Shown here piece after piece: positions 29,020 to 50,949 of a DNA stretch of 64,000 nucleotides. The stretch is from NCBI GenBank assembly GCA_016189905.1, contig JACPRP010000098.1, positions 1 to 64,000 on the forward strand. Reading direction: 5' to 3'. Numbering within the stretch: position 1 is the stretch's first letter; each line of letters opens with the position of its first letter. The stretch is from Chloroflexota bacterium. Lineage in GTDB: Bacteria; Chloroflexota; UBA6077; FW602-bin22; JACPRP01. The notes under the pieces were generated by a model. It worked only from the letters and a program-made list of their open reading frames with translations. It ran no database searches and was not told the origin of the DNA. A program made the position numbers and the translations under genes.

Positions 29020-30385
29020 CGGTTCTCCGTCGACGAATCAGCCGTCGTCCGCCGACTACCAGCGCTCCAATCACGACACAGCCGCCGAGCGTTGAGCCAA
29101 GCAGCGTCAGGTCGATAGGCAGCCGATTGTATTGGCTTCGTCCGATGGGGTCGTAGCGATCACGTACCCGGCCTACGCTCGCGAGCGCGTTCTCTGCTTG
29201 TTTGGTCGACTCCTCGTAGGCGCGTTCGACTCCGCTGTAGTCCCGCTGTCCAAGATCCTCCTCGGCTTGATCCAACGCGGCCAGCGCTGCGTCGGTAAAC
29301 TTTATGGCGTGCTCCAAGTCGCTGCGTGCTGCCTGGTCGATCGTAAACGGGACGCAACCGGGCCCCAGGTCACAGCGCTCGCCGCGGTCGGCCGACGCGA
29401 GCAGTTTCTTCGCGTCGGCGAAGTCGCTGCCTTCTGGTGAGCGCGGGCGGTAATTCATCACGTCCGTCTGGGCCATGGTAGCCGACAGAGCCATCAGCTT
29501 GACATCCCAGCCGAGGTGCTGGCGCTCCGCGGTGGATAATAGCGGCTGACCGGCGAGGAGGTTGATCAGTTCGACCAGAAATATTATGTTCTCGCCAAGA
29601 TCAAACCCGGCGAAGGGTGGTCGACTCAATACGCTCCCGCGCTCGAAGACCTGGCCGTTGCCGAGGTAAGCCACTTGCCCCTGGGCATTCTTGGCAACGC
29701 TCCCCACTGTGCGGTCACCGGCCGTGGCGATGGGCTCGCCACCCGTGACGGACCACGTCCAAGTTGGCAGGAGCAGCGCGTAGTCGCTCTGGCCGATACG
29801 GCCGCGAGCAGGCACGGGCGTTTCGTTCGACCTGCCTGAGCCGTAATCAAAGCCGAGACCAAAGCCCGCGAGCAACGTGGGGAGGTTGTTCTCGTCGGTC
29901 CGCCCTACCGCCCGCGCAATGACGAGTAGGCTGCCGCCCGATCGGACCCAATGCGTGAGCGTCGCCATCTCGGTCTGCGAGAGATTGTTACTTACCTGAC
30001 GGGCACCCGCAGGACTGCCGAGCGTCGTGACTCTCCAGTTCGGTAGCACCAACACGTCGACGTCGGCAAGCACCTCAGGCGTCAACTCGCTCGCTGGGGC
30101 ATCCATTGCCGTCTGCAAGGGACTCTTGCCGGTCTCGATGCGCATATACCCGGCTGACTGACCGCGTCGTTCCGATCGCAGTGTGAAGAAGCGCTCGATC
30201 ACCGTCGTCAGGAGCACTTCGTGGCGCACGAACCCGACGCTGAAGTCCGACTCTGCGATCAGCACGACGGCGTTGCGGCGCTCATAGGGTTTCTCTGCAA
30301 AGGCCGGCGTGGTCGAGGCGAGGGCCAACAGCGCAGCTAACGTAATCAAGAACCATCCTCTTGCCTGCCGCAGCGACCAGGTCAA
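29012..30385 (-). CDS. Exported DUF4350-like protein with C-terminal membrane anchor
   Basis: 457 residues from a TTG at 30385 with GGAGGG upstream. A signal peptide (1-30) leads to an outer domain with alpha/beta character: AVVLIAESDFSVGFVRHE, VLADVDVLVLPNWRV, LTHWVRSGGSLLVIARAVG and FLVELINLLAGQPLLS. This resembles the glutamine-amidotransferase-like fold of DUF4350/GldG-type proteins, without a visible catalytic triad. A helical stretch (about 350-410) precedes a membrane helix near 425-445 and a basic tail (RRLIRRRR). It is coupled to the polytopic gene downstream. Confidence 0.65.
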   Translation of the reverse strand: MTWSLRQARGWFLITLAALLALASTTPAFAEKPYERRNAVVLIAESDFSVGFVRHEVLLTTVIERFFTLRSERRGQSAGYMRIETGKSPLQTAMDAPASELTPEVLADVDVLVLPNWRVTTLGSPAGARQVSNNLSQTEMATLTHWVRSGGSLLVIARAVGRTDENNLPTLLAGFGLGFDYGSGRSNETPVPARGRIGQSDYALLLPTWTWSVTGGEPIATAGDRTVGSVAKNAQGQVAYLGNGQVFERGSVLSRPPFAGFDLGENIIFLVELINLLAGQPLLSTAERQHLGWDVKLMALSATMAQTDVMNYRPRSPEGSDFADAKKLLASADRGERCDLGPGCVPFTIDQAARSDLEHAIKFTDAALAALDQAEEDLGQRDYSGVERAYEESTKQAENALASVGRVRDRYDPIGRSQYNRLPIDLTLLGSTLGGCVVIGALVVGGRRLIRRRRTGD

Positions 30386-30891: not shown

Positions 30892-33615
30892 CTATCGCTG
30901 AGAGTCCTGCTTCTCTCGGAACGCGCGCTTCCGCTCGAGCAGGCGATCCGTCATCCTGATAGCATGCTCGTCCATCATACTGACCGCCGATGGCCGATGG
31001 CTGACGGCTCCACGCGCTAGCACTGGCGCTCGCGATCGTGCTCTGGCCAGCCAGGTGGTGGCTTCCGGCACAGCCAGGCGGCGGAAAGCGATCTCCAGCG
31101 GCCAGAAGAGGCCAGCCAACACCAGCAGCAGAGGCCAGACTGGCCACCGGGCAACGGCCGTCCTGGGCACGGCTGCCAGGGTCTGGGCCGCATCCTCTAG
31201 CACCCTGCCACCGCCTGCGGCTGCGACCTGGGCAAGGAGCGATTGGTCGATCCCTATCTCCCTGTACTCCGCCGGGTATGGCGCCACCCAGCCCGACTCT
31301 CCTCGCAGCTCGGCGCCGCCCACATCCTGTGTCACCTGCACAACGTAGGCTCCCGGCTTTGGCGCCGCCAACTGTGCCCTGTAGCGACCTGGGCCCGCTG
31401 GCGCCAGCGCCAAATCCTGCCGACTGCTGTCCGTCCCCAGCAGGGTCGCGTTGGTCGGGCGAACCTCTTCCCAGCCAACTTGATTCTCAGCCACGATGGA
31501 GAACCCGGCCTCGCCGTCGGATTCTACTCGCACGCGCAAATCGCCGCTCTCCCGCGCCGGGAGTAGCCAGGAGATCACGTTTCCCCAGAGAAGCGTCGTG
31601 GCCGGGGAACTGGCCCATGCGCTGCTCCAGCGACCCGCCACATCGGGGGTCCAGACGATGGCTCTCCCTAGCCCGTACTGCCAGGCCGACAGGATGGGGT
31701 CCCCATCGGGCGACACCAGAGTCACCTCCGCCCGCTCCTTTGGTGAAGTAGCCACATAGCCATCCAGTGGCGGGACGGCTGTAAGGCCACGCAGCAATGG
31801 CCCGTTGGAAGCGGCGGCGGGGTAAAAGCGCTCGTCTACTAGCACAGTCCGTGTCGCCATGATCGTCTCCTTGCTGAAGATCTCCGGGATATCCGCGGGC
31901 TCGGCAGTGAAGTGGTAGCGCCCTCGCCCTGCCCGGGCCATGGCCTCCAGCAGACTCGCATCGGCATCGTCACCAACCGCCACCGTAGAGAGGGTCACTC
32001 TGGCATCTCGCATCTGCCGGGTCAGCGTCCCATAATCCCCCGTAGAGCCGGAGCGTCCGTCCGTTAGTAGGATGACGTGTTTCACGTCGGCCTCTACCCA
32101 ACGAACCGCCTCGAACCCAGCCAGGAGGGCCGGGTAGACCTCGGTGCCACCGTCGGCGTAGATGCCGCCAATCGCTTTCTCCAGCCGGTCCCGGTCCGTA
32201 AGCGGCGTCAGCGGCGCCACCCACTGAGGCACCGAGTCGAAGGCGAGGACCGCCGCGCGATCCCCGTCTTGCAGCAACCGGATACTGCGAGCCGCCGCTT
32301 CCTTGGCCATTTCCACTTTGGCCCCACTCATACTGCCGGACTTATCGATGACCAGCGCCAATGCCACCTTCGGCTGACGACCCCGGCCCCGCAGGTCCAT
32401 ATACACCGGCAGCGCCCGTTCTGCCGCCGTGCCCGCATAGCCTCCGGGACCGAAGCTGTCGGGCCCGCCGGTCATCACCAGTCCGCGGCCCAGGTCCCGC
32501 ACGTATCGCTCCAGAAGGTCCATCGATCCAGGTGGCAGCGCCTCCGCGGGTACATCAATCAGGATTGCCCCATCGTATCGTGCCCAGCCGGCCAGATCTC
32601 CTGGAATGCCGGATGGGGGGGCAACGATGACTTCCACTCCACCGGCAGATAGGGAGGCCGGTAGCCAGCCGGGGGCATCGGGACTTGAAGTGATCGCCAG
32701 CACCTTTGGCGGGCCCAGCACGCGCTGGATCGCTCCAATCGCATCGTTGGCGTGGATGCCATCCGCGCTGGGGTCCACGGCAGACACATCCACCTGATAA
32801 CGATGAAGGCCCGGATCCGCCACAGCAAGCGGTAGGGCCACCTCCTGGTGGCCGTTTCGGAGATCGACCTCCCGCTCCAGTACCATCTGGTCATCGCGAT
32901 AGACACGAACGGTTGCGCCGGTCGCCTGGTCCGCGTATATGCGAGCCGTGAGGGTGGAGACCTCGTGCTGATAAGCGGTCTCCGCGAGATCCACGGCCTC
33001 CAGCCGAAGGTCCGGGACGGAGGCCCCGCCCAGTGGGAGAACGTTCACCTCGACACCTCGGGCGGCCAGCTCCCTGGCGGCTGCCACAGCGTTGCCTTGG
33101 GTCTGTCGTCCGTCCGAGACAAGCACCACTCTGGCGACGTAATCATCCGACAGCAATGCGCCCGCCAATCGGAGGCCAGAGGCGAGGTCGGTGCCTCCGT
33201 TGGGAAGCGCCGCCGAGAGGCGTGTGAAGAGAGGGACTACAGAAGGCGCCTCCTCCACCCTGGCTCCCGCGGCCACGGCCACCACGCCCAGCCGGTCCCC
33301 TTCGCGAAGCTTCTCTGCTGCGGACCGTGCGACGGCCTCGGCCTGATCTCGGAGGGGGGCAACGCTGGCAGAGACGTCCATGACAAAGACCGTGGCCTGG
33401 CGATTCAGAGGTCGGGTGATGGTGAGACCGGAGAGCGCCAGCACCACCATAGAGACCCAGATCAGACGGAGTGCCAACCGTCGGCCCTCGATCCACATCG
33501 CTTTCCGGCCGGCCTTCCGAGCTGCCGTCCACCACGGCCAGCGTCCTGCCACCAGGAAGGCAACAAGCAGCGGCAGCGCCAGCAGCCACCAGGGATTGTC
33601 GAACTCAGCGCCCAC
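30892..33615 (-). CDS. Large BatA/BatB-like membrane protein with two VWA domains and a GATase1-like domain
   Basis: 907 residues from GTG 33615; 11-bp overlap with the upstream VWA gene. Two N-terminal helices (8-25, about 50-68) anchor it. A first VWA-like domain follows with the MIDAS start DVSAS (about 80). Next comes an amidotransferase-like domain (about 300-400; ITSSPDAPGWLP, LVMTGGPDSFGPGGYAG). A second VWA domain (about 415-590) has a full-looking MIDAS: VIDKSGSMSG and LLTDGRSG. A beta-rich region and a membrane helix near 850 end the protein, with a basic tail. It is the last gene of the ABC/MoxR/DUF58/VWA operon. VWA proteins with MoxR ATPases act as metal-dependent, chaperone-like assembly partners. 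Confidence 0.85.
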   Translation of the reverse strand: MGAEFDNPWWLLALPLLVAFLVAGRWPWWTAARKAGRKAMWIEGRRLALRLIWVSMVVLALSGLTITRPLNRQATVFVMDVSASVAPLRDQAEAVARSAAEKLREGDRLGVVAVAAGARVEEAPSVVPLFTRLSAALPNGGTDLASGLRLAGALLSDDYVARVVLVSDGRQTQGNAVAAARELAARGVEVNVLPLGGASVPDLRLEAVDLAETAYQHEVSTLTARIYADQATGATVRVYRDDQMVLEREVDLRNGHQEVALPLAVADPGLHRYQVDVSAVDPSADGIHANDAIGAIQRVLGPPKVLAITSSPDAPGWLPASLSAGGVEVIVAPPSGIPGDLAGWARYDGAILIDVPAEALPPGSMDLLERYVRDLGRGLVMTGGPDSFGPGGYAGTAAERALPVYMDLRGRGRQPKVALALVIDKSGSMSGAKVEMAKEAAARSIRLLQDGDRAAVLAFDSVPQWVAPLTPLTDRDRLEKAIGGIYADGGTEVYPALLAGFEAVRWVEADVKHVILLTDGRSGSTGDYGTLTRQMRDARVTLSTVAVGDDADASLLEAMARAGRGRYHFTAEPADIPEIFSKETIMATRTVLVDERFYPAAASNGPLLRGLTAVPPLDGYVATSPKERAEVTLVSPDGDPILSAWQYGLGRAIVWTPDVAGRWSSAWASSPATTLLWGNVISWLLPARESGDLRVRVESDGEAGFSIVAENQVGWEEVRPTNATLLGTDSSRQDLALAPAGPGRYRAQLAAPKPGAYVVQVTQDVGGAELRGESGWVAPYPAEYREIGIDQSLLAQVAAAGGGRVLEDAAQTLAAVPRTAVARWPVWPLLLVLAGLFWPLEIAFRRLAVPEATTWLARARSRAPVLARGAVSHRPSAVSMMDEHAIRMTDRLLERKRAFREKQDSQR

Positions 33616-35425
33616 GAGCGTCCACCCACCATTCCACCAGAGATATCAGCAACACGGCCGCTGCGAGCCAGGGCCATAAAGTGATGGAGCCACGCGCCGA
33701 GAGAGCCGCAGCGCCATCGATTGCTGGGATGTCCACCGCACGCGCGGTAGGGTTCGCCTCCCGGGAATCGTACCCGCCGGCGATCAGGAAGGACTCCTGC
33801 TGCCCGCCATCCCCTCTTTGGACGACGCGGTAGAGGCCGGGGACAGGTGCTCGAAACGGCATGGGAGGCCACGGCGGCGCCAGGTCGATGCGGGAACCAT
33901 CAGGTCCCTCCACCCACATCCGCTGAGTAAGCGGAGCGGCTTCCAGGGCAATGGCCGAGCCGATGGCTACCGTCCTGGGGGCATCCCCAGGCCTCGGCAG
34001 CAGCCAGTCCAGCAGATTGGCCATCAGGACCGGAAAGGCCGGCCGCAGGGGCAGGTCAGACTGGCTCAGCTCGAAAGCGAGCACCGCCTGCCGCTGGTCG
34101 CCCTCGGTGCGCACGGCCAGCAACGGGCCGCCATCGGAGTCGATCACCTTCTCCCATCTCCCATCCAGGGCCAGCTTCCGAGCCTTCGCCACGCCGACCT
34201 CCGACCAGTCGACGTGTTTCAGCAACGGGTGATCCGCCTTGGGCCACATCTGCCGGGGGCGGAACTCCTCGCCGTTGGGCGGCCCCACTAACAGCGCGCT
34301 GCCGTCGGGCATCGGATCGGGCCAGAGTCGGTCTAGCACCGTGAGGGGATATGCCGCGCGCTGTTTCGAGGCGAGACCGGGCCAATCCGTGGGGTTGGCC
34401 TTGAAGGAACGCAGGTTGCCCTCCACGCTCAGGATTCGCTCCAGGAAGCTGTTGCCGAAGGTGACCAGGAGCACTCGATCCTCGTTTTGATCTGCCACCA
34501 CCGCCCAGGCTCGATCGTCCTGATCGAGGGCGTTGGCATTGAGCGGGACCCCTGAGAGGCGCGCCTCGTACCATCTGGAGCCTGGCGGCAGGTGAGACCA
34601 GGTAACGTAGCCATCGGCCCCGGGCTGTAGTTGCCACTCCTGGACACCGACCAGCCGACCCTCGGACAGAAGCTGGAGACGGCCGGAGACGGTGGCTGTG
34701 CCGGTATTCTTGATGCCCGCCTGCAGCGTGATTTCGCCGTCGCCCGCGCGCAGGGCAAGGGTAGTCACCGCCACATTGTCCACCTGGCCGCCGATGGGGA
34801 TAAAGCGGAAGCTGGAGCCGGCGGGACGGCGAGCACCTTCGGGCAGCGTCACGCCGCCGTCACCTATCAATACCCATTCTGCCGGACCTCTGGTGAGGCC
34901 GGCGGCAAGGGCCATGGCCGCAGTTGTGTCTGGCGACCCATAGGAGGCTTGCTCCTGTCCAACGGCCGGTTCTACTTGTCCGACTCGGCGCGCTCCAGCT
35001 ACCAGCACTCTCGGCTGCTCGTCCAGGCGCACCACAGTCATCTCCTGGTCCGGTCCGAGTCCGCGGGCCAGATCCAGCACGGCCGCTCTGGCGGCGGCGA
35101 AGCGGTCTGGCTCCACATCCCGGGCCCGCATGCTGCCGGAGGCATCCAGTAGCACGATCAGGTGGCGTCCAGCAGCCTCGGCCGGTAGAAAAGGCTGGGC
35201 CGCGGCGAGGGCGAGCAAAGCGGCGATGGCTATCTGGAGCCACAGCAGTGGATGGCTTCGCAGCCGCTGCCATGGATGTGACGACTGCCTCTCGGCAGGT
35301 GACGACGGCCACAGCATCAGGCTTGGGACGCGAAGGCTCGGGCGCCTCGGCTTCAACATCCAAAGCGCCAGGATGGCCGGTATGACGGCAGCCAGCCCGA
35401 GCGCGAGCGGTGCTTCCCAGCTCAC
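33605..35425 (-). CDS. BatA-like membrane VWA protein
   Basis: 606 residues. The N-terminus has the aerotolerance-regulator (BatA) pattern: a helix at 5-25, MLKPRRPSLRVPSLMLWPSS, and a second helix near 60-80. A VWA domain (about 88-215) has the MIDAS motif LLDASGSM followed by Arg-rich sequence. A CARDB-like beta domain (about 225-300) and a glutamine-amidotransferase-like region (about 310-480) follow, and a membrane helix ends the protein (about 580-600). It starts two bases after the DUF58 stop and overlaps the next VWA gene by 11 bp. It probably partners the MoxR ATPase at 36333. Confidence 0.85.
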   Translation of the reverse strand: MSWEAPLALGLAAVIPAILALWMLKPRRPSLRVPSLMLWPSSPAERQSSHPWQRLRSHPLLWLQIAIAALLALAAAQPFLPAEAAGRHLIVLLDASGSMRARDVEPDRFAAARAAVLDLARGLGPDQEMTVVRLDEQPRVLVAGARRVGQVEPAVGQEQASYGSPDTTAAMALAAGLTRGPAEWVLIGDGGVTLPEGARRPAGSSFRFIPIGGQVDNVAVTTLALRAGDGEITLQAGIKNTGTATVSGRLQLLSEGRLVGVQEWQLQPGADGYVTWSHLPPGSRWYEARLSGVPLNANALDQDDRAWAVVADQNEDRVLLVTFGNSFLERILSVEGNLRSFKANPTDWPGLASKQRAAYPLTVLDRLWPDPMPDGSALLVGPPNGEEFRPRQMWPKADHPLLKHVDWSEVGVAKARKLALDGRWEKVIDSDGGPLLAVRTEGDQRQAVLAFELSQSDLPLRPAFPVLMANLLDWLLPRPGDAPRTVAIGSAIALEAAPLTQRMWVEGPDGSRIDLAPPWPPMPFRAPVPGLYRVVQRGDGGQQESFLIAGGYDSREANPTARAVDIPAIDGAAALSARGSITLWPWLAAAVLLISLVEWWVDARGR

Positions 35426-35427
35426 CG

Positions 35428-36336
35428 TTATCGTCCTGTCAACACGCCGGCGGTCGGCAATTGCTTCAAGACTGTCTCGTGGAGTGGAATCCCGGTGTTG
35501 ATGGCAAGGTGCACGACGCCGAGGCGATGGCAGTGGGAGTTTACCTCGGCCAAAAAAGCCCTCAGCCGTTGGCGATATGCCCCCAACTCGACGGGGCCGA
35601 GCCGCGTGGGACGCAACTCACCAGACTCGGAGTCCACCAGCTCAACCTCCTGGCCCAGGGGTGGCTCCCACTCATCAGGCGCCAGGAGCTGCAGCACCAC
35701 CGCCTCGCCGGAGGGCGCGAGGCTGTCCAGTGCGGAGCGCCAGGTCGGGTCCAGCAGGTCCGTCAGCAGAAAAACTGGACCGCGTCCTTTCCTCGAAGGA
35801 CCACGCGCCACCCTTCGCACCGCGTCGGCGAGCAGAGTCCGCCCCGACTCGCGAACAGCGCCCAACTCCCGAAAAACCACGACCGTCGTCGCCCGGCTAG
35901 AGACCGACGGCAGCGGCAAGGCCTCGCCATCTCGCACCAGGAAGACCTGCACCGTCTCGTGATGGCTGACGCCGATCCAGGCCAGGCCTGCGGCCAGCCT
36001 GCGGGCATACAACCCCTTGTGAGAATCCCCCTCGCTCCAATCCATAGAGGTGCTGGCGTCCACGAGAAGCGTGATGGTACGAGAGCGCTCCTCCTCGTAC
36101 TGCTTCAGGTAGAGCCTGCCAAGCCGCGCGTACGCTCGCCAGTCCACGAGCTTTGGGTCGTCGCCGGGAGCGTAGGCGCGATAGTCAGCGAACTCCAGGG
36201 CGCGGCCGCGTGTTCGGGAGCGCACCGAGCTAGGATGCTGGCCCCGTGCAGGGCTTCGCGCGGCGATGGAGAGCCGCTCGATAGCAGCGCCGAAGGCGGG
36301 ACCCCAGCCGGGGAAAGAGTAATGAGTAATCATCAC
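35428..36336 (-). CDS. DUF58 protein
   Basis: 302 residues without a membrane segment. It has the DUF58 hallmark RGRALEFADYRAYAPGDD followed by LVDWRAYARLGRLYLKQYEE. A VWA-like fold follows with the MIDAS-type start LLVDASTSMDW, DGEALPLPSV and FLLTDLLDP. DUF58 proteins occur with MoxR ATPases and VWA proteins across bacteria; the exact job is unknown. ATG 36336 overlaps the MoxR stop (ATGA), and its stop is two bases from the BatA-like gene, so it lies in the centre of the operon. Confidence 0.92.
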   Translation of the reverse strand: MMITHYSFPGWGPAFGAAIERLSIAARSPARGQHPSSVRSRTRGRALEFADYRAYAPGDDPKLVDWRAYARLGRLYLKQYEEERSRTITLLVDASTSMDWSEGDSHKGLYARRLAAGLAWIGVSHHETVQVFLVRDGEALPLPSVSSRATTVVVFRELGAVRESGRTLLADAVRRVARGPSRKGRGPVFLLTDLLDPTWRSALDSLAPSGEAVVLQLLAPDEWEPPLGQEVELVDSESGELRPTRLGPVELGAYRQRLRAFLAEVNSHCHRLGVVHLAINTGIPLHETVLKQLPTAGVLTGR

Positions 36337-37328
36337 TCGCGACTCACACAGGATAGGATGCGGCCGATGAGCGCGTCGGGGGTGACGCCTTCGGCTACGG
36401 CCTCGAACTGGAGGATCATCCGGTGGCGCAGGGCCGGCATTGCCATCCGCTCCAGGTCAGCGAAGGCGACGTTCCAACGGGCGGCTCGTAGCGCTGCCAC
36501 CTTGGCTCCAAGCACCAAGGCCTGGAGCCCCCGGGGGCTGGAGCCATACCGGACAAAGCGCTGCACCTCGGGCACAGGCGAGCGGTCGGGATGCGTAGCG
36601 CCCACCAGCCGCACTGCATAGCGCATCACGTGAGGTGCAATCACGATTTGCCGCGCAAGCTCCATCGCCTGCGCCAACTCCTCCGGTCGCAGCACCTTAG
36701 GCGGAGCTTCTTGAGGGACGCCTGTGGTGCGCTCCGCGATCTGGGCCAGGTCGTCGTCCGATGGGAAGGGAACCAACACCTTGAAGAGGAAGCGGTCAAG
36801 CTGCGCCTCGGGCAGAGGATAGGTGCCCTCCATCTCCAGCGGGTTTTGAGTAGCCAGGACGAAGAAAGGCTCCGGCAGCAAGTGGGTCTGACCACCGGCC
36901 GTGACGGTGTGCTCCTGCATCGCTTCCAGGAGCGCAGACTGCGTGCGTGGGGTGGCACGGTTGATCTCGTCTGCCAGCAGCAGGTTGGCGAAGATCGGGC
37001 CGGCGGCGAAGGTAAGGCCACCCGTCTCGCGGTCGAATAGCTGGGTGCCGGTGATGTCCCCGGGCATGAGATCCGGGGTGAACTGGACTCGCCCGAATGT
37101 GAGACCCGTAACCTGGCCGAGGGTGCGGACCAATAACGTCTTGCCTAGTCCGGGCACTCCCTCCAATAGAATGTGGCCGCCTGCCACCAACGCCGTCAGG
37201 ACCTGATCCACCACCTCGGATTGGCCGACGATGGTCTGGCTGAGAGCTTGAGCTACTATGGACAGCTTCTCGCGGCTTTCCGTCGCGGCGGATTCGGTGA
37301 GTCCTTCTGAATTTTCGCTCATCAACAT
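36333..37328 (-). CDS. MoxR-family AAA+ ATPase
   Basis: 331 residues. Walker A is GVPGLGKT (about 60), Walker B LLADEINRA (about 120), and sensor 1 ATQNPLEMEGTYPLPEAQLD, the MoxR hallmark. An arginine-finger region and the C-terminal lid (SPRGLQALVLGAKVAAL) follow. MoxR ATPases are chaperone-like and work with VWA-domain proteins to activate or assemble complexes. Here DUF58 and two VWA membrane proteins follow immediately, and an ABC-2 transporter precedes on the same transcript. ATG 37328 lies four bases after the stop of the Gly/Ser-rich protein. Confidence 0.95.
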   Translation of the reverse strand: MLMSENSEGLTESAATESREKLSIVAQALSQTIVGQSEVVDQVLTALVAGGHILLEGVPGLGKTLLVRTLGQVTGLTFGRVQFTPDLMPGDITGTQLFDRETGGLTFAAGPIFANLLLADEINRATPRTQSALLEAMQEHTVTAGGQTHLLPEPFFVLATQNPLEMEGTYPLPEAQLDRFLFKVLVPFPSDDDLAQIAERTTGVPQEAPPKVLRPEELAQAMELARQIVIAPHVMRYAVRLVGATHPDRSPVPEVQRFVRYGSSPRGLQALVLGAKVAALRAARWNVAFADLERMAMPALRHRMILQFEAVAEGVTPDALIGRILSCVSRE

Positions 37329-37332
37329 CTAA

Positions 37333-39087
37333 TCACCTCTGTTGCGGCGCGATCGCCGAGAAGTAGCGCTGCACCATACTCTGGAGGGACGAGGGCAGGG
37401 GTTGGCGCGAAAGGGATGGCCGCGCGGCGGCCTCGTACTGGCCATACACCTCGTTGTAGGGCCGGACCGAGCCGAGCTCCAAAGGCGAGTCGGGCAGCTC
37501 GACCGTCTCACCGCTCGCCCCCTGCGCTCCGCCGTACGCTCCCACCTGCGGCCCATCGCCGCCCATCAGATTCGGTGCATACACGGGGTCGTAACCGGTG
37601 GTGCCGCGCATGCTAGGATCAGCTCTGCCGCCAGCCAGAGTGGCTCCAGCGCTACCGCTTCCAGGGCGTCCCGACGAAGCCTCACCTCCGGCCCCAGATC
37701 CGTCGCCCGCGCCACCACCCGAGCCACCAATCGCCCCGGAGCCGGTGCCACTTCCTGATCCGGCACCCGTCCCAGATCCCGAGCCGCTGCCCGAGCCAGA
37801 ACCCGAACCCGTCTCCGAGCCGCTTACGGAGCCGCTTCCTCTCTGAGCGCCGCTCCCGCTCGCCGCCTGGCCACCGGATGCGCTCCCGGAGGCTGGCCCG
37901 GCCGCCACAGCCTGACCTGAGCCTGCCGAAGGTGCATTGGCCCCTCCAGGGCTACCGGCCATCGCTCCCAGGCCAGCCCGTGCCTGCCCCACCCCGGCCA
38001 TTGCCTGCTGCACCGCTCCTAAGCCGGATGAGCGAGATATCCCCTGTGCGAGAAGTGACGCGACATCGCCCATGGCGGCGCCCTCACCGGGTGCATTGGA
38101 GCCAATGGCCTTTCCAATCTGGCCGGCCGCCTGTCGGAGGGCTCCCGCTAACACGGGGACGTCCCTGGCAGCATTGGCACCGGCCTGGAGCGCCAGTGTT
38201 AACCTCTGCCTGTCCTCTGGTGTCATGGCTTCCGCCCGCTTCGCCAGATCGGCCATTGCCTGTTGTACGGCCTGCTGATCGCCGGCCCTGATGGCCCTGG
38301 ACAGGGACCCCAGATCAGGGTTGTCCTGCCAGATTGAGGACAATCCCTCCATAGCCCGCTGCCAGACGTAGTGATCCGTATTCGCCTGGCTGGCCAGCTG
38401 CTCCTGGGTGTGCTCCAGGATTCGCGCGGCTTCCTCGGCGGTTCTGGCCTCTGCCAGTTGCCGCTCCGAAGCCCTCAGAGCCTCTGCCGCAGACTGGGCC
38501 AGGGGTTCGGGCAGCACCGCGAGCCCGGCCTCTATGCTTTTCAGAGCCCTTATGGTCGCCACCACCGATTGCGCTTCGGCAGCCTGACGGCCGGCATCGC
38601 CAATATCTGGCACTGGCAGCAGGACCGCCAGCGCGAGAGCCAGCGCTGCGATCACCTCCACCCGCCGCGCTCGATCTGGCATCAGCAAGGGATAGCTGGA
38701 TGGGTCGATCCGGGCCAGTGCCTTGGCGGCGTCCGCGGCCAATAATGGTGCCGCTGGATGGTTGGCACGGGCAGCGTAGAGGGCACTGGATACCCGCTCC
38801 GACAAGCCTAGGCCGTCGGCCGCCAGGGCAACTATCCAGGTATTCGGCCAGCGTCGAAGGGCAAGCGCCACCGATGCCGCCAGAGCCAGGGCTGCCCAGG
38901 CAAGGGCTGCCAGAGACCAATCGGGGTAGCTCATTACCCGCCCGCCCGCCGCGAGAAGAACGGCACCAGCCACTGCCCACAGCAGCCCCGAGCGCACGCA
39001 CTCCAGCAGCCAGCGACCGCGCACCCGGCGAGCGAGAGTGATGAGAGATGGGTGATGGATGATGGGTGATGAGTGATCAGTACTCAT
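37333..39087 (-). CDS. Membrane protein with helical domain and long Gly/Ser/Ala-rich segment
   Basis: 584 residues. The first 20 residues are His/Ser/Ile-rich and arise from a TGATGGG simple repeat, so the true start may be later. Helices lie at about 30-50, 55-75 and 150-167. A helical, Ala/Gln-rich stretch follows (about 170-360). Residues about 365-490 are low complexity Gly/Ser/Ala (GSGSGSGSGSG and similar). The C-terminal 95 residues are ordered-looking (LSRQPLPSSLQSMVQRYFSA). I recognise no family. It lies three bases after the ABC-2 permease and four before MoxR, so it is a fixed part of the operon, perhaps an adaptor or stalk. Confidence 0.7.
   Translation of the reverse strand: MSTDHSSPIIHHPSLITLARRVRGRWLLECVRSGLLWAVAGAVLLAAGGRVMSYPDWSLAALAWAALALAASVALALRRWPNTWIVALAADGLGLSERVSSALYAARANHPAAPLLAADAAKALARIDPSSYPLLMPDRARRVEVIAALALALAVLLPVPDIGDAGRQAAEAQSVVATIRALKSIEAGLAVLPEPLAQSAAEALRASERQLAEARTAEEAARILEHTQEQLASQANTDHYVWQRAMEGLSSIWQDNPDLGSLSRAIRAGDQQAVQQAMADLAKRAEAMTPEDRQRLTLALQAGANAARDVPVLAGALRQAAGQIGKAIGSNAPGEGAAMGDVASLLAQGISRSSGLGAVQQAMAGVGQARAGLGAMAGSPGGANAPSAGSGQAVAAGPASGSASGGQAASGSGAQRGSGSVSGSETGSGSGSGSGSGSGTGAGSGSGTGSGAIGGSGGGAGDGSGAGGEASSGRPGSGSAGATLAGGRADPSMRGTTGYDPVYAPNLMGGDGPQVGAYGGAQGASGETVELPDSPLELGSVRPYNEVYGQYEAAARPSLSRQPLPSSLQSMVQRYFSAIAPQQR
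39035..39079. repeat. TGATGGG/TGATGAG simple repeat at a gene start
   Basis: About 45 bases of imperfect GTGATGAG/GTGATGGG units supply the first 15-20 codons of the Gly/Ser-rich protein gene. Related runs occur at 40269-40300 (the mirrored TCATC form) and 36318-36340, all at operon junctions. Confidence 0.55.
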
Positions 39088-39090
39088 GAA

Positions 39091-40212
39091 TCATCGCTTC
39101 GGTCGGCGTCGCCATGGCTTTACGGGCGCTAGTAACAGGGCAGTGAATCCCAGGCAGAACGCCGCCAGCAGGCCACTGAAGGCGAAATGGTACACCCAGG
39201 GCGCCAGCTGCGTCACCATCCGCGGCTGGCCCGTGTTCTGGTCGACGGCCACGACGTATACAGCGCGGGTGATGTCAGGACTGGGCTGGGACGGGGCGCC
39301 ATACCCGTAGGCCCCACCCGTCGTGAGGGCACGCATCAGGTCACCGATCAGCGGAACTCCCATTCCCGAGGAGCCAGCCGGCAGCACCGAACTGACCGAG
39401 ACCAGGGGGCTGGCGTACAAATAGGCCGGCGGCACCCCCGGCGGTCCGCCCTGCCCCGTTTGCTGACGGGCCACCATAGCCACCGCAGATACGAAGGGCA
39501 GCCCGAATACCAGGAGCAGCACCAGCAGGTAGGCGATGACCGACGCCACTATTGTCCGCCTGAGCAGCGCGCTCAGCAGCAATCCAAGAGACGCATTCGC
39601 CAGAGCAGTGACGGCAGCAACGGCCAGCACCATAATCAAGTATATAGCCGGCACCCCGCCGAACAGGTAGACCAGGGCAAAAACCGGCAACGACGCCACC
39701 AGCAGGAAGAGCACATAGGAAAGTGAGCCCGTCAGCTTGCCCGCGGCCAAGCCGAAAGGAGATGCCCTGGTGACTAGCAGCAAATCCAGAGTGCGCCTCT
39801 CACGCTCACCGCTAACCGTCCCTGCTGTCAGAGCAGGGGTGATGAAAGTCAGCAACAGCACGGCGCCGGTTCCCAGAGCAGAGAAGAGCTGGGTGCCCAC
39901 CATTGGAGAAACAGTTCCCCCGACCGCACCCACAAGGCCCAAGAAGCCGACTACGGCGAGAGTTAGCAGTCCGAGGTAGCCGGTAAGCAGCAACACCGGC
40001 CTCCACCCTCTGTTGCGGGAGCGAAGATCTTTGCCAACCAGGCCCCGCACGCCTAGCGCTACGCCGGCTCGGGACTCGGCCGAAGCATGTCCCCTTCCCA
40101 GGAAGTAGAAGATTGTGGCCACCAGCAGAAAGACTGCTACCACGACCAACGTCCAGTCCATCGTGGAGAAAATCTCCACTGTCTCCAGTGGAGCGCCCGC
40201 AGCAACAGACAT
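39091..40212 (-). CDS. ABC-2 type transporter permease
   Basis: 373 residues with ATG 40212 after AAAGGAGGGG. A first helix (12-35) is followed by a polar loop, then helices at about 70-90 and 95-120. The motif GERERRTLDLLLVTRASP after helix 3 is typical of ABC-2 permeases. Four more helices follow, with a large loop (about 250-340) that holds PPGVPPAYLYASPLVSVSS, and a last helix near 345-365. It pairs with the ATPase encoded 82 bp upstream. ABC-2 systems move lipids, polysaccharides, drugs or act in cell-surface machinery (for example GldF). Here the direct link to MoxR/VWA genes is unusual. Confidence 0.9.
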   Translation of the reverse strand: MSVAAGAPLETVEIFSTMDWTLVVVAVFLLVATIFYFLGRGHASAESRAGVALGVRGLVGKDLRSRNRGWRPVLLLTGYLGLLTLAVVGFLGLVGAVGGTVSPMVGTQLFSALGTGAVLLLTFITPALTAGTVSGERERRTLDLLLVTRASPFGLAAGKLTGSLSYVLFLLVASLPVFALVYLFGGVPAIYLIMVLAVAAVTALANASLGLLLSALLRRTIVASVIAYLLVLLLVFGLPFVSAVAMVARQQTGQGGPPGVPPAYLYASPLVSVSSVLPAGSSGMGVPLIGDLMRALTTGGAYGYGAPSQPSPDITRAVYVVAVDQNTGQPRMVTQLAPWVYHFAFSGLLAAFCLGFTALLLAPVKPWRRRPKR

Positions 40213-40294
40213 TAACCCCTCCTTTCCACGGCAGCTTCCTCAGCCATCGGTAACAAAGCGAGCTGCCTACTCATCACTCATCATCCATCACTAA

Positions 40295-41212
40295 TTACTC
40301 GTTCCGCGCCAACCGCAAGAAGGTCGCCTCGAGGCTGCTCTCGATCTCGGCGAAGCGCACCACGGGAATTCCACTTCGGACCACTGCAGCAAGGGCCTCG
40401 GCCGCCGATTCAGCTCCCCCGTCACAGTGGAAGCGGATATCGCCATCTGATACCGACACGGCGCCGATGCCCTCGGTGGACTCCAGCATCGCAACGGCTC
40501 GTTCAACATCCCGCAGCACTTTGAGCTGGTAGGCCGGGCGCTCCGCCGCCCACAATACATCCTTCACGGTTCCTTCCCTAAGCAGCCTGCCCGAGGCGAT
40601 GATTCCGATGTGGGTGCAGAGGTCGGCCAGCTCGGAGAGGATGTGGGAGCTGATCAGGATGGTTTTGCCTATCCGTCCCAGTTCCTTCAGCAACTCTCGC
40701 ATCTCCACCCGGGCAATCGGGTCGAGGCCGCTGGCAGGCTCGTCCAGCAGCAGCACCTGCGGGTCGTGGATCAAGGCTCGCGCCAGGCAGAGCCTCTGCT
40801 GCATTCCTCGGGAGAGTCCTTCCACGTACTCGTCCCGCTTGTGCGCCAGGTCCACCAGTTCCAGCAGGCTGTCTCGAAGTGAGATCGCCGCCCAGCCCCG
40901 CATCCCCTGAAGAGAGGCGTAGAACTCCAGGTACTCTCCCACCTTCAAGTCATCGTATACGCCGAAGAAGTCCGGCATATAGCCAACGAGTTTCTTGATC
41001 TCGTAGGGCTGCCTCAGCACATCCACTCCGGCTACCTCGGCGCTACCGCCATCTGGAAGCAGCAGGGTCGCCAGCACTCGCAACGTGGTGGTCTTGCCGG
41101 CGCCATTCTGTCCGATGAAGCCGTAGATCGAGCCGTCCGGGACTGTGATAGAGAGGCCATCCAGGGCGTTTACGCGCCCGTATCGTTTGGAGAGGGAGTC
41201 GGTGCGGATCAT
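40295..41212 (-). CDS. ABC-2 type transporter ATP-binding protein
   Basis: 305 residues from ATG 41212; the frame extends to 41371 but that part lies inside the preceding gene. Walker A is GQNGAGKTTT, the signature is LSRGMQQRLCLARAL, Walker B is VLLLDEPASGLDP, and the switch His is in SSHILSEL. A C-terminal domain (about 220-305) is of the DUF4162 type common in ABC-2 ATPases. The closest style is GldA/CcmA/NatA-like. The ATG overlaps the stop of the exported protein gene by four bases. It supplies ATP hydrolysis for the permease at 39091. Confidence 0.93.
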   Translation of the reverse strand: MIRTDSLSKRYGRVNALDGLSITVPDGSIYGFIGQNGAGKTTTLRVLATLLLPDGGSAEVAGVDVLRQPYEIKKLVGYMPDFFGVYDDLKVGEYLEFYASLQGMRGWAAISLRDSLLELVDLAHKRDEYVEGLSRGMQQRLCLARALIHDPQVLLLDEPASGLDPIARVEMRELLKELGRIGKTILISSHILSELADLCTHIGIIASGRLLREGTVKDVLWAAERPAYQLKVLRDVERAVAMLESTEGIGAVSVSDGDIRFHCDGGAESAAEALAAVVRSGIPVVRFAEIESSLEATFLRLARNE

Positions 41213-43965
41213 TTCGACACCGTCCCTTCCACCGTCAGCTCGGGCTGCAGGAACATGACTACCCGATCGGGGCCAGACGACACCTGGAGCTTGACCGAGC
41301 CGTCGGAGCCCACGTAGGCCGGAGCCGGCTGCAGCCGTACCTCTTCTGCACCACCAGGTAGCTGTTCCCACGTCGCCGATTGCCAGTCGTAAATGGAGAA
41401 CACGCCTGCTTCGGCCGGCAAGGGGATGGCGCTCGGGGGTGGCGTCGCCATCCCCTTGCCGGGGCTGAAGGATGTGGACTGTCCCATTTGCCTGGTGCCG
41501 ATGACCAGCGCATCCACCTTGGACGTTATGGGCAAGGGCGGGCGGAACTGGTAAACCATGGAGCTACCCTGGATCTGAATCCAACCGATAGTGCCATTGC
41601 TGCCACCCCCAAAGCCGCCGCCTTGCGAGACCACCTCTGCCGGAATCATTGCTGGGGGTATAGTGAAACGACCCGGGGGCAGGTCCAGGCTGAGTGGCTG
41701 GTCCAGGAGGGTCAGGTAGAAGGTGGGATGGCTGCCGGCGGCCGGAAGCCTCTCTCCCACTGATGCCCTGGTGAAGGCCAGGAAGGTAAGCGGCATGGAC
41801 TGGCTGTTGGGGCCGGGCTGTGGGATGTTCACGATGGAATCCATCAGCCGGATGCGGCGCTGCACTTCAGGATCCTGGGATACCTCATACTGCTCCGGCA
41901 TACCCCCTGGCCCCCCATAGTACCTCATTGTCGATGATGCTGCCAGAGGGGGGGGAGGGGCAGGAACCGCGATGGCAACTCCGGCTGTTCCAGAAGTCCG
42001 CGCACCTCGTGGCTTTCCGAATAATCGCCAGGATATGGGGTAGCGGTTGCCGAAGGCAGCGGCAGGCGGACCGGGATCCAGCGCCACGGAGGCTGTTTGA
42101 CCCGGCGCGAGACTCCCCAGCTTCGCCGCGCTCTGGCCCACCAGCACGCCCGCATCTTCGAGCAGGTAGGGGGTATCGTTCCGAACGGTGCCCTTGATCA
42201 GGCCTTCTTCGATCTGCAGCTTAGCGGTGATCCTGCCGGTGTTGTCCAGCAAGCGAGAGATGGCCAAGCTTCGCACGCCCCACTGGCCGGAGTTGAACTC
42301 CACCCTCGTGTCGCGGCCGGCGACCACGTGGAAGGGAGGCTCAGTGGAACCCGAGGCCGCTGGACCGCCGAAGGTCGAGTACGGCTGGAAGCCCGTGTTG
42401 GTGCTGGGCTGCACGGGGATATCTCCGGGCACGTCTACCGTCAGGGTGGAGTGGGTCGGTGCGAAGAAGCCGGCTATCACCGCCTGCATGGCCTGCTCCC
42501 CGTTTGGATCGAGCCGTACGTGAGAGACCACGTTGACCAGGACGTCCCTGCCGTCTCGCCCCACCCCGAGGTAGTACATGCCGCCTGCTACCAGCAAGGC
42601 CGCGACCGGCACGATAGCCCAGGACCAGATCCGCCTATCCACGCGCCATAGCACGAGGTGCAGCCCTGGGCCAACCACCAATACGAAGCCACCTAGCAGC
42701 AGCGCCATGATCTGCCAGCCCGGGAAGGCCTCGGGAGGTAGCGCTTGCACCGCGCCCTGGAGGAGGATGGATGGGTTCCTCTGTTGCATCTGGATGTACT
42801 GGAGCTTCTCGTTAATCTCCCCGGTGGCTGGCAAAGCCGGTTCAAGCCCTTTGCGCAGCAGGGCCGGTGTGCCGGGCCAATCCATCAACGGCTCCAATCC
42901 GGGATCTGCCGCCAGCAGGGTGATGGTGCCCTGGCCGAGGCCGATACGCCAGGCGAGAGGAAAGTTCGAGCTCCCAGCCAGGGGCGATCCCTTCTCAGGA
43001 CGGAACCGGACCGCTGGACCGGTCGCGAGGGCTCGACCTTTGAAGTCCGCCCACACGCCCAGAGGGGAGAGATCGGCTGAGCCATCGGCGCCAGAGAAGG
43101 TCACCGGTAGCGCACCGTCGGGGAGGACCGAGGCGGCACGCGGCGCATCTGGCCCTCCAGACACCAGCAGGTGTCCACCCGCAACCACCCACTGCTGCAG
43201 CGCCTCCCGCTGCTCACCGGTCAGTGCTATAGCGGCATTCCCCTGCACCGCCAGTGCACTGAGCGCGCTCAGCCGCTCGGCCGAGGGAGGGAGGTCCGCC
43301 GCGGCCAAGCTAGCGACGCTGAGGGGGACCGGGAGTCCCTGCACAGGTAGCTCTACCTGCCGTAGGGCCCGCGCGATGGCGGGTGAGTCGGCCAGGACCC
43401 CAATAAGGGGCCACAAAGGTGTCTTGGCGCTACGGAACTCCACCTTCTCTTCCGCAACGGTACCACCGTTTACCACGAGCCTGACGGAACCAGGTGAACC
43501 CACATTACTACCCATAGCGGGAATGCCAGGCACCCACAACGTCACCTCTTTGGCGACTCCGGCTGGCAGCGCTACCTCTTGACCATAAGCGGCAATGGCA
43601 TACTCGATGGGAGTGGCTTGCGGTCCGGTCTGAACGCGCGCCTTGCTGACCACCTCCACTCGGCCCGCCACGTCGGAGTTGCCGCCCGTCAGCCGGACGC
43701 GGACCGGACTCCAGCTCCCCGGCACCACCTGCCCGTCCCACCCCACCTGGAGTACCTCCAGGACTGAGGTCTCGGCGGAGACGGTCGTAGGCAGGAGAAT
43801 GCCGGCAATCACGGTTAGCAGGCCTATCACCAACAAGCTGGCACGGCTTTGGATATGAGGTACCGTCGTCGCCGGCTTCTTCACTCCGGGGCCGTTTGTG
43901 CCGCACTTGGCGTAGACAAACCGTTTTGCCAGTATCCTTCTTGTGAGCATCAACTTGGCTTCCAT
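41209..43965 (-). CDS. Large exported membrane protein, first gene of the ABC/MoxR/VWA operon
   Basis: About 918 residues from ATG 43965; TTG 43986 and ATG 43950 are alternatives. A basic N-terminus leads to a signal or anchor helix (near 45-65 in this numbering, ending TTVSAET). An outer beta-rich domain follows, then an amidotransferase-like stretch (about 180-380; LTGEQREALQQWVVAGGHLLVSGG in parts, LTLLAADPG-like strands). Two helices lie near 410-435 and 445-465. A second, beta-rich outer region ends the protein, with Pro-rich loops and RYYGGPGGMPEQYEVS. The GATase-like part recalls the VWA proteins and DUF4350. I cannot name the family. The coupled ABC-2 genes suggest it is a periplasmic-side partner. 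Confidence 0.7.
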   Translation of the reverse strand: MEAKLMLTRRILAKRFVYAKCGTNGPGVKKPATTVPHIQSRASLLVIGLLTVIAGILLPTTVSAETSVLEVLQVGWDGQVVPGSWSPVRVRLTGGNSDVAGRVEVVSKARVQTGPQATPIEYAIAAYGQEVALPAGVAKEVTLWVPGIPAMGSNVGSPGSVRLVVNGGTVAEEKVEFRSAKTPLWPLIGVLADSPAIARALRQVELPVQGLPVPLSVASLAAADLPPSAERLSALSALAVQGNAAIALTGEQREALQQWVVAGGHLLVSGGPDAPRAASVLPDGALPVTFSGADGSADLSPLGVWADFKGRALATGPAVRFRPEKGSPLAGSSNFPLAWRIGLGQGTITLLAADPGLEPLMDWPGTPALLRKGLEPALPATGEINEKLQYIQMQQRNPSILLQGAVQALPPEAFPGWQIMALLLGGFVLVVGPGLHLVLWRVDRRIWSWAIVPVAALLVAGGMYYLGVGRDGRDVLVNVVSHVRLDPNGEQAMQAVIAGFFAPTHSTLTVDVPGDIPVQPSTNTGFQPYSTFGGPAASGSTEPPFHVVAGRDTRVEFNSGQWGVRSLAISRLLDNTGRITAKLQIEEGLIKGTVRNDTPYLLEDAGVLVGQSAAKLGSLAPGQTASVALDPGPPAAAFGNRYPISWRLFGKPRGARTSGTAGVAIAVPAPPPPLAASSTMRYYGGPGGMPEQYEVSQDPEVQRRIRLMDSIVNIPQPGPNSQSMPLTFLAFTRASVGERLPAAGSHPTFYLTLLDQPLSLDLPPGRFTIPPAMIPAEVVSQGGGFGGGSNGTIGWIQIQGSSMVYQFRPPLPITSKVDALVIGTRQMGQSTSFSPGKGMATPPPSAIPLPAEAGVFSIYDWQSATWEQLPGGAEEVRLQPAPAYVGSDGSVKLQVSSGPDRVVMFLQPELTVEGTVSK

Positions 43966-44406
43966 TAGCCGTTCCGTTGCCTCCAATCCTCAATCTTGCG
44001 GACACGGATGAGTGTAGCCTGCCCCCGTTGCAGTCTCCCCATACTCAAAACGCTGCATGCTGAGAAAGGTCTCGCTGTCATCCAGTGCAAACCAATAGCG
44101 GCAATAGTGTCCGAAAAAAGAATGCCAGAGCACCTTCCAAATTTTTGAACCGTTGCGAATCAGCCGATTTGGATCCCGCCTGTTCGCGTATGGCTGCCAA
44201 GAATTTGTCTACGGATCGTGCTTCGACCCCGGTTCGGGTCCGTGGATTCTTCCTCCATTAACGTGGAGAAAATGGTTATTGCCCTCCCTATGCGCGAACC
44301 GTGCCTTGGATTGCACCTATATAATACAACAGAACTGGCCCTTCATACAGCAACGTCGGCGTCAAGAGTGGCCACAATGAAAAGAAGCAATTGATCTTGG
44401 TACGCC
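43966..44406. other. Intergenic stretch of about 440 bp
   Basis: No gene is visible. It lies between the start of the long minus-strand operon (43965) and the end of the beta-lactamase-like gene (44407), both on the minus strand. It therefore should hold the operon promoter, which I could not identify. A TATAAT at 44320-44325 faces plus and leads nowhere obvious. Confidence 0.45.
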
Positions 44407-45660
44407 TTATCTTCCGCTTTGCCTCTCGAAGTGTTCGTACACCAGCCGTGATAGCTCGGCGATCGGTTTGGTCTCCCAGGCTTTATCGGACAGGACGGCG
44501 ATGACGTAGGCGCCTCGTGGCGCGTAGACCACGCCGACATCGTGCGTCGCGTTATCCCAGTTGCCGGTCTTGTGTGCCACTCTTGTCCCTGCCGGCAGGA
44601 GCGACGGTAGTCGGTCGTTGATCTTTTGGCGGGCGAGCAGGTCGATCATCTCCTGGCCCGATCTCTCATCGACCGCCTTGCCGTGGGCGATCATCTCCAG
44701 CCACAGAGCCATATCTCCAGCCGATGTGGGGAACTCGTCGCTGGCGATATCCGTGTGTTTGAGGCCGATGGCTCTGTAATCGGCGATAATGTTCCAGCCG
44801 CCGGTTCTGTCGTGCAGCATCATAGCGGCGACGTTATCGCTCTCGGTAATCATCGCTTCGACCAGGTCGCGAACCGATATCTGGCTCCAGACAGGCCAGC
44901 GCGGTGGGCCCAATTCGTAGTCAAGGTAAGGTGGCGTGAAGGTAAGCATCTCGTCGAAGCTCAGCAACTGCAGCTCTCGCTGTTTGAAGACCTCGAACAT
45001 CACCAGGATTTTGAACAGACTGGCCGCGTAGAACTCCTGGTCGGCGTTGATGGCAACCCCAGCGCCATCCGACAGTCGTTTCACTACCACTCCATAGCTG
45101 TCGATATCTTTGCCAAGGTAGACCCTGATCTGATTTTCCAGGCGCTCGTCTGGTCGCAGCGGCAAAGGCTCATATCGTGGCGAAGGCGGCACAGCCCTTG
45201 TTCCCGCTATCCGTGTGGCGATGGGCGTCGGCGTACCGTTGGGAGAGGAAGTCTGCGATATCCCGCCGTCAGTGGTTGCGGTCGGTCGCGGGGTAGACGT
45301 GCTTGCGGCACTAGGCGTTGGTGTTGGCTGTTTCGCCGCTGTCGGTGAGGGTGCTCTTGTCGGCGAGGGTGGGTTGATCCTGGTCGGGGAGGGAGCCGTC
45401 TGGGACCGTGTTGCGATTGGATTTGATGCTGGCGGCTCACGGTCCAAGGTCGGCGTCGCGCCACGGGTAATCTGAGGCGGGGAAATCGCCGCCGCCGTTG
45501 GCAACGCAGCCTGTGTAGTCTCAAATGGCGCCGCAGGCAGCCCTGGAGCAGGCGTCGGAGTCGGCGCTGGCGCGAAGCCGCAAGCGGCAGATAAGAGTAA
45601 GACGATTGCAGAGCCAACAGCGGCCAGTATATGAGATCTAGAAAGTCTAGCGCTCCACAT
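44407..45660 (-). CDS. Class A beta-lactamase-like lipoprotein
   Basis: 417 residues from ATG 45660, which has GGGGTGG just upstream; ATG 45684 is the alternative. The lipobox LSAAC puts the lipidated Cys at 27. A Pro/Thr/Ser linker (about 30-170) leads to a serine beta-lactamase/PBP-like domain: SLFK (Ser 214, Lys 217), SDN (274-276) and KTG (364-366). The first two follow in the order and distances of class A enzymes. I see no clear ExxxN omega-loop Glu166 motif, so it may be a D,D-peptidase-like or beta-lactam-binding protein instead of a true lactamase. It is anchored outside the membrane and appears to stand alone. Confidence 0.85.
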   Translation of the reverse strand: MWSARLSRSHILAAVGSAIVLLLSAACGFAPAPTPTPAPGLPAAPFETTQAALPTAAAISPPQITRGATPTLDREPPASNPIATRSQTAPSPTRINPPSPTRAPSPTAAKQPTPTPSAASTSTPRPTATTDGGISQTSSPNGTPTPIATRIAGTRAVPPSPRYEPLPLRPDERLENQIRVYLGKDIDSYGVVVKRLSDGAGVAINADQEFYAASLFKILVMFEVFKQRELQLLSFDEMLTFTPPYLDYELGPPRWPVWSQISVRDLVEAMITESDNVAAMMLHDRTGGWNIIADYRAIGLKHTDIASDEFPTSAGDMALWLEMIAHGKAVDERSGQEMIDLLARQKINDRLPSLLPAGTRVAHKTGNWDNATHDVGVVYAPRGAYVIAVLSDKAWETKPIAELSRLVYEHFERQSGR

Positions 45661-46013
45661 TCTGCCACCCCAGATTATCATCACGTACGTAGCGTAGCTT
45701 TGTCCCCATAGTATATAACGTAGGTCAACCCCAAAAGGTTCCTGAAAGCTGCCGAATTCAAGACTGGATGGAGCCCATGCGAGTCTGCTTGTTCTGTTGC
45801 ATTATGCTTGTCATACAAGTTACTCGGTTCGGTGGCATGCGAATTGCTGCCGGCAGGACGTGGAATGCTAAAAGCGCAGTTTGCGCTGGTATATGACACG
45901 CCGCCCCAGGGCAACCACATCGGGATTGCCCTTACTCCGCCCGGGCGATTGCTAAAAACCTGAAGCAAACCGCCGTAGATGGGGTTAATTGACGCCGATC
46001 GAAGGAGAAAGCT
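45661..46013. other. Divergent intergenic stretch of about 350 bp
   Basis: It lies between the divergent lipoprotein and hemerythrin genes and should hold promoters for both. I found a TTGACC on the minus strand near 45720 but no matching -10. The plus side has a strong AAGGAG at 45999-46005 before the ATG at 46014. No gene is visible. Confidence 0.4.
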
Positions 46014-50380: not shown

Positions 50381-50949
50381 CGTGTGTCCTCCTGTCGCCC
50401 TTCCCCAGGAACGGATGTATCCTTCTGTTGGAAGGACAGAGTGCGCGCGAGTGCCCATCGTGCCCTGTAAGCGCGTGTCTTCGCGGCTCCGGCGGTAATA
50501 CTGAGCATCGCCCCAATCTCTTCGAACGAAAACCCGTCTCGTGCCTGAAGCAACAGGCACGCCAGTTGATCCTTCGGTAGCTCAGCCAGCGCAGCCTGCA
50601 GTTCCTCTTTGGCCGGGACGCGATCTTGAGGATCGCCCCCCATCCTCACAGCATAGCGAACGCCGAGCGGGAGCCACTTCAGCAGGCGATGGCGGCGATG
50701 GTGATCGAAGGCAGCGTTGGTGGCGATGGTGAAGAGCCACGCCTTCACGTTGAGGCCTGGCTTCGTTTGGCCGATGGCGCGATACGCCTTGACGAACACG
50801 TCCTGCGTCAGGTCAGCGGCAACGTCGGGGTCCCCGACCATGCGGCAGAGATAGCCCGCGATCCGCGGCTGACATAGAGTGTAAATTGTCTCGAAGTCCA
50901 TCGTGTCGTCAGTCTGTCGCACGCCCTCGAAGCCTACCTCACGAGCCAT
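50377..50949 (-). CDS. ECF sigma factor
   Basis: 190 residues. Region 2 is clear: RIAGYLCRMVGDPDVAADLTQDVFVKAY, seen as CRMVGDPDVAADLTQD and FVKAYRAIGQ, then KAWLFTIATNAAFDHHRRHR. Region 4 shows LLQARDGFSFEEIGAMLSIT and AKTRAYRARWAL. The tail is short and polar. Its stop overlaps the start of the anti-sigma gene by four bases. ATG 50949 follows GGGGGATGTGA; ATG 50901 is a possible shorter start. It should be released when its anti-sigma partner receives a signal. Confidence 0.9.
   Translation of the reverse strand: MAREVGFEGVRQTDDTMDFETIYTLCQPRIAGYLCRMVGDPDVAADLTQDVFVKAYRAIGQTKPGLNVKAWLFTIATNAAFDHHRRHRLLKWLPLGVRYAVRMGGDPQDRVPAKEELQAALAELPKDQLACLLLQARDGFSFEEIGAMLSITAGAAKTRAYRARWALARTLSFQQKDTSVPGEGRQEDTR

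Follow-up and report, generated by a model that had tools for sequence, protein, structure and literature searches.

Eight genes on the minus strand of a Chloroflexota contig probably build a single cell-envelope machine (we put this at about 90%), a conclusion drawn from a gene order that is kept across many Chloroflexota and Bacillota. The genes encode an ABC-2 transporter pair, a MoxR AAA+ ATPase with a DUF58 protein, two VWA proteins (BATA and VWAG), a membrane protein with a Gly/Ser linker (GS), and a large protein with a signal helix (EXP). The initial annotation had read the tight coupling of these genes as a sign of one machine, and this reading holds up in conserved synteny, in co-occurrence of the two halves when they are split, in the agreement of their trees, and in a motif of the VWAG tail whose presence follows that of the ABC genes.

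Operon organization

In the window (the whole stretch of 64,000 nucleotides analyzed), the genes span 30892 to 43986 in the order EXP-ATPase-permease-GS-MoxR-DUF58-BATA-VWAG (Table 1). Six of the seven junctions lie between -11 and +4 bp: EXP/ATPase at -4 bp, where the ATPase start codon (ATG at 41212) overlaps the EXP stop, permease/GS at +3, GS/MoxR at +4, MoxR/DUF58 at -4, DUF58/BATA at +2, and BATA/VWAG at -11. The remaining junction, ATPase/permease, is a gap of 82 bp and the one exception to the tight packing claimed for these eight same-strand genes, whose order was as first described. The start of EXP is ambiguous (TTG at 43986 or ATG at 43965). An internal transcription break was considered and rejected, as a sequence scan found no minus-strand promoter-like site inside the operon and none of the terminator-like matches (13 against 7.3 expected) was convincing.

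Table 1. Coordinates and sequence features of the operon members in the window
Feature	Positions	Strand	Description
EXP	41209..43986	-	signal helix, Ig-like sandwich, GATase-like alpha/beta domain, two TM helices, beta-rich extracytoplasmic C-terminus; DUF7408/DUF4350-related
ABC ATPase, DrrA/GldA-like	40295..41212	-	Walker A, signature, and Walker B all intact
ABC-2 permease, weakly GldF-like	39091..40212	-	from Pfam and family-model scores
GS	37333..39087	-	three TM helices, coiled coil, Gly/Ser linker, conserved C-terminal segment
GS C-terminal segment PYNEVYGQYEAAARPSLSRQPLPSSLQSMVQRYFSAIAPQQR	37336..37461	-	YF kept in 112/123 complete homologues
MoxR AAA+ ATPase	36333..37328	-	Walker A/B and sensor 1 intact
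DUF58 protein	35428..36336	-	VWA-like MIDAS motif DASTS; no TM helix (cytosolic)
BATA	33605..35425	-	two N-terminal TM helices; extracytoplasmic VWA, Ig, GATase-like, and Ig domains; C-terminal TM
VWAG	30892..33615	-	N-terminal TM helices, two VWA domains with MIDAS motifs, GATase1_like, C-terminal TM, cytosolic tail
VWAG cytosolic tail	30895..31083	-	holds RLLERKR (30925-30945), the window copy of the RLLxAK+R motif

Domains and predicted topology

Pfam recognizes ABC_tran, ABC2_membrane_2, AAA_3 (MoxR), DUF58, BatA with VWA_2, and VWA with GATase1_like among the operon proteins, and most genes are what they had been named. The protein first called exported proved to have two internal TM helices besides its signal helix, and the Gly/Ser-rich protein does have a low-complexity linker but also three TM helices, a coiled coil, and a conserved C-terminus; it matches no recognized Pfam family. 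On inspection, the ATPase motifs and all four MIDAS-type motifs (DxSxS) are intact.

The presence of GATase-like domains in three members was borne out, by Pfam for VWAG (PF07090, 3.8e-10), by fold for BATA, and by weak family matches and a loose fold resemblance for EXP. A structure search with the predicted BATA model (pLDDT 87) matched STM3548 (2gk3, E 2.8e-5) and also BatB (3ibs), pointing to a VWA plus a GATase-like domain. EXP homologues give weak DUF4350, DUF7408, and GH42M matches, and the AlphaFold model of EXP (43 sequences, pLDDT 79) matches mostly multidomain glycosidases in the PDB with low TM-scores. These matches agree loosely with the likeness of DUF4350 to the beta-galactosidase trimerization domain pointed out by Makarova et al. 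(PMC5898192). Since BATA and VWAG contain no cysteine and the only one in EXP is C28, in the leader, a catalytic amidotransferase of the Cys type can be ruled out. The positive-inside rule predicts an outside location for the C-terminus of GS and for the VWA domains of both BATA and VWAG, and an inside location for the VWAG tail, MoxR, DUF58, and the ATPase.

Conservation and natural variants

We found long BATA genes in 82 of 201 Chloroflexota genomes and EXP in 64, with both in 61, BATA alone in 21, and EXP alone in 3 (Fisher P = 2e-29, kinship ignored). In 28 of the 61 genomes with both, from 17 families, EXP and BATA lie within 15 kb of each other, and profiles built from the window genes show the same gene order; in the other 33 the two are not this close, some of these cases being contig ends. 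Separation of the halves in relatives, which had been named as evidence against coupling, does occur in some families (f26 and f34 among them), but there the operon divides into EXP-ATPase-permease and GS-MoxR-DUF58-BATA(-VWAG) blocks that stay intact at two places in one genome. At most split loci EXP is immediately 5' of the ATPase, and GS mostly goes with the MoxR half.

Among named genomes, a scan with a VWAG alignment gave 80 loci, most of the uncut ones in full order, with hosts that include Bacillus, Lederbergia, Brevibacillus, Aneurinibacillus, Thermincola, Syntrophomonas, Desulfoscipio, Mahella, Dictyobacter, and Caldilineaceae. As this set was picked by VWAG, Bacillota were also sampled by EXP, which matched in 23 of 150 and 33 of 200 genomes (two overlapping samples). 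The 28 uncut loci comprised 20 full operons, 7 with EXP-ATPase-permease alone, and 1 without the ABC pair. Verrucomicrobiota had EXP in only 3 of 96 genomes. One locus, L146, was counted as Bacillota, because the Armatimonadetes search that yielded it picked up the genomes that the Bacillota searches had also found; an Armatimonadetes home was therefore dropped. The joined operon is a standard form in two phyla, which does not support the premise of the initial annotation that MoxR-DUF58-VWA and ABC-2 sets are usually separate. Judged by sequence comparison, the arrangement is far beyond chance, given that the identical gene order recurs in dozens of distant genomes.

Several variants depart from this order. 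In Anaerotignum and Lachnospiraceae the ABC genes, GS, BATA, and VWAG are together and MoxR-DUF58, the genome's only strong MoxR match, is elsewhere. At three loci (L106, L273, and L276), EXP lies with the MoxR half and the ATPase and permease are missing, and in L273 and L276 a polytopic protein of ~250 amino acids occupies the ABC position. MoxR-DUF58-VWA modules without ABC genes also occur.

Co-inheritance of the two halves

Trees were built from 69 complete operons, with the concatenated ABC half set against the other five genes. Distances in the two halves correlate with a Spearman coefficient of 0.75, a value reached by none of 500 permutations, and the trees have 53 of 66 bipartitions in common. 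Supported clades of the ABC half were found again in the other half in 47 of 52 cases, a count slightly inflated by two same-genome locus pairs. Distance correlations with BATA are weaker for the single genes (ATPase, 0.23; permease, 0.45).

All eight window genes have their nearest relative in one genome (G089), and after it most are nearest to a small Desulfotomaculum-type clade of Bacillota (L147, L219, L245, and L145). In both half trees the window and G089 are sister to this clade, apart from the other Chloroflexota. Because the half trees agree and the eight genes have these relatives in common, the simplest reading is that the whole operon would have been transferred between phyla as a block.

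Terminal motifs of VWAG and GS

The cytosolic tail of VWAG has a median length of 105 residues and closes with RLLxAK+R or near variants. Of 96 VWAGs that accompany ABC genes (88 linked to them and 8 split from them), 92 have a tail that carries the motif and is 40 residues or longer; of the 14 ABC-less VWAGs 2 do, and both look spurious on inspection. These counts are exploratory, since the motif was defined post hoc from the data and its regular expression loosened stepwise, and the ABC-less contrast amounts to about five lineages on the VWAG tree, four short-tailed and the fifth (L070) with a long tail and no clear motif. The same contrast is seen within one genome with two operons (G357), in which the VWAG beside ABC genes (L275) has the tail and that without them (L276) has none.

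GS ends in PYxEVYxxY...VPxxLxxxVxxYFSxL after a variable Gly/Gln/Ser linker, with YF within the last 30 residues in 112 of 123 complete copies. The VPx..YF part is retained without ABC genes, and the upstream PYxEVY part mostly accompanies them.

Comparison with known systems

No described operon of this type was found in the open-access literature. The nearest idea is an archaeal complex of DUF4350 (arCOG01314, GldG-like), MoxR, and vWA proteins, predicted to act in secretion or membrane remodeling (Makarova, Galperin and Koonin 2015, PMC5898192). In each case a single operon encodes MoxR, VWA proteins (predicted to be extracytoplasmic in the window operon), and a GATase/flavodoxin-like protein that is anchored in the membrane and faces the extracytoplasmic side. 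The archaeal list lacks an ABC ATPase and permease, however, and the window operon adds DUF58, GS, a BatA-type protein, and a full ABC-2 pair. The archaeal DUF4350 protein has a signal peptide and one C-terminal TM helix, whereas in EXP two TM helices are internal and are followed by another extracytoplasmic domain at the C-terminus; its score against the DUF4350 model is 19.7 bits, below the 30.4 cut-off.

The ABC-2 ATPase, the permease, and an extracytoplasmic GATase-like subunit recall GldA/GldF/GldG, but the window ATPase and permease fall far under the GldA and GldF cut-offs (220 bits against 402.6 for TIGR03522 and 24.5 against 288.5 for TIGR03518). EXP has no GldG match (PF09822/TIGR03521) in Pfam or NCBIfam models, and its alignment with three PF09822 proteins in hhalign covers 98 columns of the GATase-like part only (E 0.009, probability 4.6). 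The same genome carries a separate GldF/GldG-type pair (G000 contig C57, L254; PF09822, 109 bits).

Adjacent MoxR, DUF58, and BatA-type genes, the BatA N-terminal domain, and the VWA folds are shared with the Bat (aerotolerance) operon, in which BatC/D/E stand instead of the ABC-2 genes, EXP, and GS; no BatC/BatE TPR or BatD domain was found by Pfam in the ten window genes scanned. NorQ/NorD, a MoxR-VWA pair in which the NorD C-terminus contacts NorQ, was proposed to twist a membrane enzyme (PMC13036017). The operon resembles such pairs in its MoxR ring and VWA partner, and remodeling of a membrane client is predicted here from intact motifs, but the NorQ/NorD client is a metalloenzyme and comes without ABC genes. 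MoxR-vWA ternary conflict systems (eLife 2020, PMC7159879) have VMAP, iSTAND, FtsH, or a beta-propeller as their third component, none of which is among the Pfam matches of the operon.

Proposed mechanism and alternatives

Our full model, in which we have about as much belief as doubt, is a GldAF-like exporter with a collar, driven by MoxR-DUF58, with the VWAG tail contacting the ABC part. The sequences directly show the operon, how it is conserved and co-inherited, the association of the tail motif with ABC genes, and the intact ATPase and MIDAS motifs; from them we infer the physical complex and its topology, which way transport runs, what MoxR does, and what the tail contacts. The ATPase and permease would be an ABC-2 transporter, with EXP as its own extracytoplasmic subunit. 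Around it on the outer face, a collar may be built from BATA, VWAG, and the part of GS that lies outside, in which VWA, Ig, and non-catalytic GATase-like domains abound. The cytosolic MoxR ring and its VWA partner DUF58 would spend ATP remodeling this membrane complex, either in its assembly or in switching its gate, and the disordered VWAG tail ending in RLLxAK+R is a likely contact with the ABC part. With NorQ/NorD as the mechanistic precedent, we give even odds to MoxR-DUF58 assembling or gating the exporter. More tentatively, and on balance doubtfully, the operon may represent an exporter of a new class, in which an ABC ATPase and a MoxR AAA+ ring act together as motors for membrane assembly or for the gate and are coupled through the disordered VWAG tail (RLLxAK+R) and an extracytoplasmic GS tether (VPxxLxxxVxxYF).

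It is unlikely, in our judgment, that the ABC-2 pair exports nothing and, in the manner of FtsEX, relays an ATP-driven conformational change to a VWA/GATase-like collar acting on cell-wall or surface polymers. The large extracytoplasmic domains of EXP, BATA, and VWAG would suit such a relay, as would the ~250-amino-acid polytopic protein found exactly at the ABC position in two ABC-less variants, but the permease is of the ABC-2 type, a class that consists mostly of exporters, and flank clustering shows no recurring hydrolase gene beside the operon. The operon could also hold two separate envelope functions for co-regulation only, the MoxR-VWA part serving other clients and the ABC-2 pair being an ordinary exporter. 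This is rather improbable: the halves are apart in several Chloroflexota families, and ABC-only and ABC-less versions exist, yet co-occurrence is strong even in split genomes, the trees are congruent and point to block transfer, and the VWAG tail motif is present only with ABC genes.

A role in resistance, with the exporter removing a membrane-active antimicrobial that the MoxR-VWA part senses, is very improbable. The ATPase is DrrA-like, and an ECF sigma factor gene is near some loci, with a PD40 protein at ABC-only loci of Bacillota; against this, inheritance is broad and mostly congruent, unlike that of patchy defense islands, and no operon member except the generic ABC ATPase matches the PADLOC defense library, so that a defense system is unsupported.

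To our knowledge, MoxR-DUF58-VWA modules are widespread AAA+ systems whose client is mostly not known. Under the exporter model the operon itself points to a likely client, the ABC-2 transporter, and it supplies two short conserved peptides, the VWAG tail and the GS end, that are open to deletion tests. EXP homologues are present in about one-third of the sampled Chloroflexota and one-sixth of the sampled Bacillota, and an assigned function would therefore extend to many genes that at present carry names such as DUF58, DUF7408, or VWA protein.

Neighboring genes

The same-strand DUF4350-like gene noted downstream does follow, after a measured gap of 506 bp, but it has no homologue at other operon loci and is not a conserved part of the operon. 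Its sole close relative among 100 other genomes (47%) is in a genome (G081) with no BATA or EXP match. Together with a polytopic gene of ~12 TM helices it makes up an overlapping pair (-8 bp) that occupies 26941-30385, and both genes were rejected as operon parts since they are not conserved beside the operon. A common cargo gene was likewise rejected: clustering of the flanks gave mainly housekeeping neighbors, some lineages also having genes for a zinc-ribbon protein and for ECF sigma factors. In one Chloroflexota group (L071, L075, L077, L083, L085, and L086), a small zinc-ribbon protein is encoded just upstream of the split GS-MoxR half. At four ABC-only loci of Bacillota (L242, L246, L247, and L249), an ECF sigma factor and a PD40 (WD40-like) protein precede the genes, possibly as an envelope-stress regulator. 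Upstream of the operon, the window encodes a beta-lactamase-family protein (44407-45684) and a hemerythrin-domain protein (46014-47033). N-terminal zinc fingers of the anti-sigma type (zf-HC2) are present in two large proteins encoded at 17884-20322 and 48137-50560, the second also with PD40 repeats.
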